Below are positions 1 to 24,904 of a stretch of 64,000 nucleotides of DNA, piece by piece. Each line of letters starts with the position of its first letter. Positions within the stretch are counted from its first letter, which is position 1. Below the pieces are notes generated by a model. It made no database searches and was not told the DNA's origin. It saw only the letters and a list, made by a program, of their open reading frames with translations. The DNA lies in the NCBI RefSeq assembly GCF_002161055.1, contig NZ_NFLT01000004.1:124001-188000 (forward strand), written 5' to 3'. The translations under genes were made by a program, and so were the position numbers. This DNA is from Tyzzerella sp. An114 (GTDB lineage: Bacteria; Bacillota; Clostridia; Lachnospirales; Anaerotignaceae).

Positions 1-212
1 ATAAGTAAAGCTACTGATACACATATTGTTGAAAAAGGAAAGGCAACATTTGTTGCAGCAATTCCCTCTATACCTACACTCTGACCAACAAAAATCTGAT
101 CCACAATGTTATAAAGATAGTTTACCATTAATGTTAGAGCGGTAGGCACAGAGAATTTTTTTAACAGACTTAAAATAGGGTCTGTTCCAAGGGGATTTGA
201 TGTTTTTGTCAT
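1..212 (-). CDS. MATE family efflux transporter, N-terminal part (cut by window edge)
   Basis: Only the first 70 residues lie in the window. They begin MTKTSNPLGTDPILSLLKKF, followed by a hydrophobic stretch containing NYLYNIVDQIFVGQ and IAATNVAFPF. The short polar N-terminus, the VDQIFVGQ-type helix and the following hydrophobic helix are typical of the first membrane segments of MATE (NorM/DinF-like) multidrug/sodium antiporters. The ATG is preceded by a ribosome site (GAAAGGAG on the minus strand). The gene lies directly downstream of a riboswitch-terminator unit (249-402), so its transcription is probably ligand-controlled. The substrate cannot be told from this fragment; the leader suggests a flavin-like compound. 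Confidence 0.85.
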   Translation of the reverse strand, partial: MTKTSNPLGTDPILSLLKKFSVPTALTLMVNYLYNIVDQIFVGQSVGIEGIAATNVAFPFSTICVSVALL

Positions 213-248
213 AAAAATACTCCTTTCAGTCTCTTTAAAATATAAAAA

Positions 249-302
249 GGGAGAAGAAAAGAATTTTATTTATTTTTATAAATAAAAAACTTTTCTTCTC
301 CC
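249..302 (-). terminator. Riboswitch-controlled intrinsic terminator before the MATE gene
   Basis: A perfect 13-bp inverted repeat (GGGAGAAGAAAAG at 249-261, CTTTTCTTCTCCC at 290-302) is followed on the minus strand by a U-rich run (241-248). The upstream arm contains the 3' strand of the riboswitch P1 helix, so terminator and folded aptamer exclude each other. That predicts ligand binding prevents termination. Confidence 0.85.
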
Positions 303-402
303 GTCCAGACTTTCTGTCGGCTCCGTAATTTCAACGGATTAGCAAAAAAATTTGCTCGCAGGCTTTACTACCGGTAGGGGACTTCCCCGTTTCTGAAGAA
401 AA
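291..402 (-). ncRNA. FMN-family riboswitch aptamer, probable rare variant class
   Basis: Read on the minus strand, the element keeps the RFN landmarks: CTTCAG at the 5' side, CUACCGGUAG, GCGAGC, GAGCCGACAG, AGUCUGGACGGGAGAAG. P1 is UUUUCUUC (complement of 395-402) with GAAGAAAA (complement of 291-298). It departs from the canonical copy at 24704-24836: the GGGCAGGGUG...UUCCCGACCGGCGG block is replaced by GAAACGGGGAAGUCCCCUA followed by CCGGUAG. Rare FMN riboswitch variants upstream of efflux genes are known from Clostridioides difficile and relatives; some bind riboflavin, lumiflavin or lumichrome rather than FMN. Assignment to that variant group is inference from sequence and gene context. 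Confidence 0.85.
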
Positions 403-426
403 ATACTTTGTTTAAAATTTAACCTA

Positions 427-455
427 ATTATAATTTCACATTATTTAAAAGTCAA
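427..455 (-). promoter_or_regulatory. Sigma-A promoter for the riboswitch/MATE transcript
   Basis: On the minus strand TTGACT (450-455) and a perfect TATAAT (427-432) are 17 bp apart, about 25 bp upstream of the riboswitch P1 strand. The -35 box touches the 3' end of the subtilase remnant. Confidence 0.75.
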
Positions 456-753
456 TATGGGAAATTTGTACTAAAAGTAAGCATAATATTTTACACGTTA
501 CATGGGTACCGTGTCCGTTGTCATCATAGGCATTAGTTTTTCCATTTACAAAATCTTTAAAGGCTATTATACGATTTTTTGGCAGACAGAAATCAGCAAC
601 AGGAGAAATTCCGGTGTCAAGTATGGCTATGCCTACATTTTTTCCTGTAAATTGATTTTCATAATTTACTGTTTTTTTTGCTGTGTTCATACATGAATAT
701 ATTAATTTGTTATATAAAAAAGATTTGTTCATATCTGTTCTCCCAAAAAACAT
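445..753 (-). pseudogene. Truncated subtilisin-like (S8) serine peptidase remnant
   Basis: The 102-residue frame carries the first two catalytic signatures of the S8 family: the Asp motif in VGIAILDTGISP and the His motif in DDNGHGTHV. It then runs into the unrelated tail TCKILCLLLVQ and stops. A working subtilase needs a further 150 or more residues with the oxyanion Asn and the catalytic Ser (GTSMA). None of that follows; the space is taken by the MATE promoter and riboswitch. The break falls exactly after GTHV, which suggests a deletion or rearrangement. The start is uncertain; MNKSFLYNKL, a few codons in, is an alternative to the first ATG. Confidence 0.75.
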
Positions 754-932: not shown

Positions 933-1127
933 ATGGGTTGTTTAAGTAATGGTTGTGGAGGAAGTAGCTGGCTTTGGATTATCATTCTTCTTTGTTGTTG
1001 TGGAAACAATAACAACAACGGCTGTGGTTGTGGAGGAAGTAATGATGAAATACTTATTTTATTACTTATACTTTGCCTTTGTGGAAATAACAATAATGGT
1101 TTTAACATCTGTGAGGCTAAAGAGTAA
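933..1127 (+). CDS. Small Cys/Gly/Asn-rich membrane-like protein with internal repeat (unknown function)
   Basis: A 64-residue protein behind a strong ribosome site (AAAGGAGG, 7-8 bp before ATG) and closed by its own terminator. It has two hydrophobic stretches (about 13-23 and 40-50), each ending in a Cys cluster and an Asn run (CCCGNNNNN, CLCGNNNN), with Gly/Cys linkers (NGCGGSS, GCGCGGS). It has 10 cysteines. A 16-nt stretch at 951-966 recurs exactly at 1026-1041, 75 bp later and in frame, so the gene probably grew by a 25-codon duplication. Short proteins of this style occur in Clostridia and are usually annotated as hypothetical; a spore-coat, metal-binding or secreted-peptide role is possible but not shown. 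Confidence 0.7.
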   Translation: MGCLSNGCGGSSWLWIIILLCCCGNNNNNGCGCGGSNDEILILLLILCLCGNNNNGFNICEAKE

Positions 1128-24679: not shown

Positions 24680-24703
24680 AGCACTGTAAATAATAATAAG
24701 AAA

Positions 24704-24836
24704 TTCTTCAGGGCAGGGTGTAATTCCCGACCGGCGGTTATAGTCCGCGAGCTTGGTTTTAAAATTTTAAATTTTTAAAACTTTGTTGATTTGGTGTAAT
24801 TCCAAAACCGACAGTATAGTCTGGATGGGAGAAGAA
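24704..24836 (+). ncRNA. FMN riboswitch (RFN element), canonical
   Basis: All conserved blocks are present: CTTCAGGGCAGGGTG, ATTCCCGACCGGCGGT, GTCCGCGAGC, TTGGTGTAATTCCAAAACCGACAG, AGTCTGGATGGGAGAAG. P1 pairs TTCTTC (24704-24709) with GAAGAA (24831-24836). The variable P stem between is AT-rich. It binds FMN. Located upstream of a riboflavin transporter gene with a terminator between, it should switch transcription off when FMN is plentiful. Confidence 0.97.
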
Positions 24837-24904
24837 AAACATAAATCGATATGCTTTTTTGACATATTTATTTTGCATATCAATATTTGTTTTGCTTTAT
24901 TTGG

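Follow-up and report, generated by a model that had tools for sequence, protein, structure and literature searches.

Variant FMN riboswitches were reportedly described by Atilho, Perkins and Breaker in 2019 (RNA 25:23), with only one of two subtypes said to have been found to bind flavins. These variants are said to lose contacts to the phosphate and ribityl parts of FMN and to keep those to the ring, and their natural ligand is reportedly unsettled. In the ordinary aptamer, the phosphate of FMN is held by G10, G11, G32, G62 and G84 and the ring is sandwiched by A48 and A85, as stated in the accessible part of one account (PMC7573352), while the A85-G98 pair and A99 appear as further flavin contacts in the accessible part of another (PMC7824784). 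For the C. difficile variant, the available portion of the published text describes an ON switch, which binds lumichrome and lumiflavin and does not bind FMN (PMC11477304). Besides the review on this variant, our literature search, with its thin journal coverage, found no description of FMN-type riboswitches located before MATE genes or in Anaerotignum.

Here, we analysed a window of 64,000 nucleotides from Tyzzerella sp. An114, i.e. the whole stretch of DNA under study, the beginning of which carries an FMN-like leader upstream of a MATE pump gene. Residue numbers follow the F. nucleatum aptamer; 20 of the 20 listed residue identities agree. The initial annotation had placed a variant FMN-family aptamer at 291-402 of the minus strand and had proposed a covariance-model search against the FMN family, which returned a match to RF00050 at 404-289 (minus strand; 84.9 bits, E 6.9e-18, cut-off 66.2). 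Based on the covariance model and covariation, the variant FMN-class aptamer occupies 289..404 (minus strand), with P1 formed by 399-395 and 298-294. The conserved blocks GCGAGC, GAGCCGACAG and AGUCUGGACGGGAGAAG named in the initial annotation are all present. Concerning the two blocks that had been regarded as a changed pocket, GAAACGGGGAAGUCCCC, which represents J1-2 plus P2, is truly altered and contains GAAAC instead of the GGGCA of the ordinary RNAs of the same genome, whereas CCGGUAG constitutes the 5' side of P3, is paired and covaries with its partner strand, and was therefore rejected as a pocket change. Within J1-2 (389..393, minus strand), G10 is kept and the substitutions are G11A, G12A, C13A and A14C; in addition, nucleotide 62 is an A instead of a G (position 340, minus strand), a second change at the phosphate site that the initial annotation had not named. 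Two of the five phosphate contacts are altered by G11A and G62A, G10, G32 and G84 are kept, and G12 is also changed. All flavin-ring contacts are kept, i.e. A48 (356), A85 (317), G98 and A99 (304; all minus strand). The window aptamer is an FMN-class fold with a retained ring pocket and a rebuilt phosphate/ribityl pocket.

The genome also encodes two ordinary FMN riboswitches. One is located within the window (24700-24840, plus strand; 116.5 bits) before a gene for an ECF substrate component (PF12822), for which an assignment as RibU would fit, and the other (G000:C56:92645-92760) precedes ribD, ribE, ribBA and ribH. Both keep GGGC and match RF00050 more strongly than the window aptamer. Given these two RNAs and the pump-linked one, the organism therefore has FMN-controlled riboflavin genes plus a third, different RNA.

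To define the group to which the window RNA belongs, 58 genomes of the family were searched with RF00050, and 29 matches besides the window aptamer scored below 90 bits: 23 with A11-A12-A13, four with an ordinary pocket and another P1, and two partial ones (L077, L078). The four RNAs with another P1 (L055, L057, L061 and L065) read GGGCG in the pocket and are located before genes of about 186 aa. Variant RNAs occur in 24 of the 58 family genomes; 41 of the 98 family matches above 90 bits were read, as part of the ordinary set of 45 RNAs, and a variant elsewhere that keeps the T-loop could be missed. A degenerate pattern applied to a named genome collection yielded 35 stretches, 21 of which were judged to be already contained in the family set. 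The 14 additional variants, which include representatives of Evtepia, Coprococcus catus, Emergencia, Frisingicoccus, Agathobaculum, Peptoniphilus and Aedoeadaptatus, were chosen by the AAA motif, and their A11-A13 is no independent evidence; a C. difficile-like RNA would be missed by this pattern.

In the resulting variant set (n=38; the window RNA and 37 relatives, 14 of them selected for the motif), A11, A12 and A13 are present in 38/38 RNAs, while the ordinary family RNAs (n=45) show G11, G12 and C13 in 45/45. At 28 other loci from a sample of the class, which were the best scorers with model R1 and are biased towards variant-like RNAs, G11 is kept in 28/28 and G12 in 27/28. At position 13, these loci carry C (12), A (12), G (two) or T (two), and A13 was rejected as a mark of the variants. 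Judged by the sequences compared, it is A11 and A12 alone that set the variant group apart. When applied to the class sample of 391 genomes, model R1 gave 30 loci, with A11 in two of them (the window and L126). However, R1 is of no use for prevalence, because it also picks up ordinary FMN RNAs: the 38 variants score 90.4-120 and seven of 11 ordinary loci 62.9-86.7 (the other four gave no match at E 1e-6), and class-sample RNAs that keep G11 reach 97.6 (L127). Retaining G11 next to A12 and A13, L127 stands half-way to the variant pocket; it is located before a RibU-like gene. Five further RNAs (L128, L129, L130, L132 and L133) read GGGAC, i.e. C13A only; four of the five precede RibU-like genes and L133 is cut short.

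The remainder of the pocket is largely shared among the 38 variants: A48, A85, G98, A99, G32 and G33 are kept in all of them and G10 in 35. Position 62 is an A in 21 variants, including the window RNA, and a G in 17; it also reads A in four of the 45 ordinary RNAs, the rows of which look shifted by one in the parse. G84 is replaced by an A in 17/38 variants, always together with U31 for C31, giving a ratio of C31-G84 to U31-A84 of 21:17, with C31-G84 in the window RNA and U31-A84 in its same-genus relative.

The helices of the 38 variants covary, with 10 pairs showing double changes (6.6 in shuffles) and 75 cells (30.1), counts that are inflated by related sequences. The covariation score amounts to 0.202 compared to 0.108 after shuffling, and 93.9% of the cells are paired versus 34.6-54.4% when the alignment is slid; further pair types show no excess in the variant alignment (24 vs 23.6 in shuffles). 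In the six-helix aptamer, 82.9% of the cells are paired in P2, 69.3% in P4, which is partly misaligned, and at least 99.5% in the other helices.

Upstream of the aptamer, a motif scan identified a putative promoter at 427..455 (minus strand), consisting of TTGACT (455-450) and TATAAT (432-427) separated by 17 nt. Although 11 of 12 positions match in this near-consensus promoter, the scan alone is weak, since shuffles of the region contain on average 1.1 promoter-like sites; both hexamers are conserved in another genome of the same genus (G034). Transcription would start near 420 (minus strand). Downstream, the terminator comprises the 5' arm GGGAGAAGAAAAG (290..302), the 3' arm CTTTTCTTCTCCC (249..261) and the U tract TTTTTATATTTT (237..248; all minus strand), and the two arms form 13 perfect pairs, followed by 10 inner pairs. 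As stated in the initial annotation, the 3' strand of P1 (298-294) lies inside the terminator arm (302-290). The terminator alone folds with -27.9 kcal/mol (z -8.6), and 0/200 shuffles fold equally well. A ribosome-binding site, AAAGGAG, can be read directly at 220..226 (minus strand). When the leader is folded from 420, P1 is present in the minimum-energy fold at all lengths tried between 135 and 160 nt, and the fold without P1 is favoured by 0.5, 7.7, 13.1 and 15.3 kcal/mol at 165, 170, 175 and 184 nt, respectively. With P1 predicted to form early and the terminator later, a ligand would have to keep P1 in place during the emergence of the terminator's 3' arm.

We compared the pairing of downstream sequences with either aptamer strand between the two sets of leaders. 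Pairing with the 5' strand at z<-2 was found in 28/45 ordinary leaders vs 2/38 variants, and pairing with the 3' strand in 1/45 vs 13/38; at least seven Watson-Crick pairs were formed with the 5' strand in 27/45 vs 3/38 and with the 3' strand in 0/45 vs 11/38. Taken singly, 25/38 variants fall short of z<-2 in the 3'-strand test. This shift in the pairing partner fits a conversion of the OFF wiring of ordinary leaders into an ON wiring in the variants. A direct overlap of P1 and terminator is present in nine of the 38 variants (the window, L050, L059, L060, L062, L063, L067, L069 and L110), 28 have a separate terminator and one has none, and among the 45 ordinary leaders direct overlap was called once (L029). 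Energy coupling in a four-state calculation was neutral in 27/28 variants with a separate terminator and in 38/39 terminator-bearing ordinary leaders, so that polarity is unreadable there; the one ordinary leader that was not neutral is the one with the called direct overlap. Terminator overlap, folding order and 3'-strand pairing lend computational support to the ON wiring suggested previously, and the window leader is predicted to act as a transcriptional ON switch belonging to the variant FMN type already known.

The gene downstream of this leader starts at 212 and continues beyond the window, which contains its first part only (1..212, minus strand); the complete protein has 455 aa (G000:C34:122845-124212). 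Its domain is PF01554, in line with the MATE pump expected downstream, and TIGR00797 is matched over its cut-off. The nearest solved structure is the MATE transporter BH2163 (PDB 4lz6; whole length, E 5.9e-74), which presumably is labelled a DinF-type MATE. The pump remains below both NCBIfam cut-offs for the multidrug MATE pumps MepA and FepA, and it is only weakly similar to the YeeO family (39.2 bits vs a cut-off of 465), YeeO being an E. coli flavin exporter according to the accessible part of PMC12934955. MATE orthologs with 53-86% identity to the window pump follow 36 of the 38 variants, three of the 36 being cut by the locus end, and the remaining two precede an MFS protein, recognised by PF07690 (L102) or by a like N-terminus (L106). 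Conversely, orthologs of the pump (at least 54% identity; next match 47%) are encoded in 33/57 family genomes, one in each, and a variant lies upstream in 24 of these 33, namely at 23 of 30 loci examined and in G023 (L074). In the flanks of the other nine, no variant was seen with R1 and the pattern (G009, G010, G014, G015, G016, G020 and G025) or with the pattern only (G011 and G013). A decayed variant aptamer (L181:1055-1150; 20.4 bits) is located before the pump ortholog of G025.

Past the left end of the window, a 305-aa serine recombinase with Resolvase and Recombinase domains (L004:3905-4822) adjoins the pump gene, with 72% identity to a protein at the corresponding place in G034. It was rejected as a sign of recent insertion, since the genes of the pump area, recombinase included, have the same order in G034. 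On the other side, a 102-aa fragment with similarity to the N-terminal region of subtilases (445-753, minus strand; PF00082 at 20.2 bits, just below the cut-off) ends just upstream of the promoter, and its G034 counterpart is 63% identical over 91 aa. Further away, a 64-aa Cys/Asn/Gly-rich peptide (933-1127, plus strand) has no Pfam match, and its first 20 residues alone match near the G034 site.

Taken together, we consider the following model probable as a whole: a terminating ON riboswitch, in which a phosphate-less flavin stabilises P1, with the MATE pump as its output. The nascent leader would first fold into the FMN-class aptamer with the rebuilt phosphate/ribityl pocket, and P1 would be stabilised by a phosphate-less flavin such as riboflavin, a breakdown product (lumichrome, lumiflavin) or a flavin-like toxin. 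P1 held by the ligand would keep its 3' strand out of the terminator and the pump would be made, whereas without ligand the 13-bp terminator would displace P1 and transcription would stop. In this model, the aptamer, its substitutions, the covariation, the pump association, the competing terminator and the changed pairing partner were computed, and we infer the ligand, the direction of switching in the cell and the substrate of the pump. That the ligand would be a phosphate-less flavin is suggested by the changed phosphate contacts, which speak against FMN, and by the kept ring contacts, which point to a flavin or one of its analogues; an efflux pump under ON control suggests an unwanted compound that has to be removed. 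A reasonable candidate is lumichrome, as the gut Lachnospiraceae species C. scindens reportedly forms it from riboflavin under anaerobic conditions (available part of PMC12934955).

The second-best R1 match in the 391-genome class sample, L126 (100.3 bits; RF00050 105.6 bits), allows a comparison with the C. difficile type. This RNA precedes an EmrB-type MFS gene (L155; TIGR00711 over its cut-off), and of the C. difficile ribZ primers, the sequences of which were taken from the accessible part of PMC4418817, the forward one matches upstream of the gene at 21/22 positions and the reverse one just past its stop codon at 17/25, neither of them exactly. L155 therefore probably represents ribZ of C. 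difficile or of a near relative, the organism being named from the primers only. The L155 RNA reads AGAAAU at nucleotides 9-14, has A62 (assigned by eye) and keeps the L2 T-loop. In contrast, an L2 T-loop of the UGNAANU type is present in 45/45 ordinary RNAs and in 0/38 variants. The P6 stretch or loop is one base shorter in 26/38 variants, and an L5 loop of the TGNRA type occurs in 29/38 variants and 41/45 ordinary RNAs.

Since the MATE-linked lineage lacks the L2 T-loop, the C. difficile ligand cannot simply be carried over. It is possible, albeit on the doubtful side, that this lineage has a ligand of its own, unlike that of the C. difficile RNA, i.e. a flavin-like toxin, an anaerobic flavin catabolite or another aromatic compound. 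The missing L2 T-loop, which is retained in the C. difficile-like RNA, the shortened P6 loop and the different pumps (MATE vs EmrB-type MFS) would be in agreement with this, as would the flavin binding that Atilho and colleagues reportedly observed for only one of their two subtypes; however, the changes in J1-2 and at A62 are identical in both RNAs. We regard as doubtful the more specific idea that the T-loop-less lineage represents a separate specificity class sensing a natural flavin-like compound, such as the anaerobic catabolite hydroxyethylflavin or a flavin antimetabolite of a gut neighbour, with the MATE protein as its dedicated exporter.

It is unlikely that FMN itself is still sensed through the modified pocket and switches on the pump to remove surplus flavin. 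The window RNA does keep the ring residues as well as G10, G32 and G84 and scores above the cut-off of the FMN covariance model, but two of its five phosphate-binding guanines are replaced, G11 is replaced in every variant, GGGC is retained in both ordinary FMN RNAs of the genome, and the C. difficile variant is reported, in the available part of the source, not to bind FMN (PMC11477304). A decaying FMN riboswitch without ligand-dependent function is very improbable, since, despite the remnant before the G025 pump (L181, 20.4 bits) and the missing RNA at 9/33 pump orthologs, the helices are kept by compensatory changes across 38 RNAs and promoter and leader are conserved within the genus.

The set described here comprises 38 RNAs from gut-type anaerobes, of which 36 are linked to a single orthologous pump, so that aptamer and transporter are open to joint study in vitro or in a harmless organism. 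The variant FMN kind itself is already known; the value lies in the tight pairing of RNA and pump and in the unsettled ligand. Moreover, the missing L2 T-loop represents a natural experiment on a change of specificity in an FMN-class aptamer.

Compared to the ordinary FMN riboswitch (RFN element, RF00050), the window RNA shares the fold and the ring-binding residues, and the variants mostly share the TGNRA-type L5 loop. It differs by the changes at G11, G12 and G62, by the absent L2 T-loop, by a reversed predicted polarity and by its output, which is efflux instead of synthesis or uptake. With the variant FMN riboswitches reportedly described by Atilho and colleagues in 2019, it has in common the FMN-class fold, altered phosphate/ribityl contacts, an efflux pump downstream and ON wiring by termination, the latter being predicted here from sequence and folding, while the direct overlap of P1 and terminator distinguishes the window RNA from them. 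The ribZ-type RNA of L155 is altered in J1-2 and at position 62 just like the window RNA; in the C. difficile-type system, however, the pump is an EmrB/QacA-type MFS protein and the RNA keeps its L2 T-loop, whereas here a MATE pump is combined with an aptamer lineage without it.
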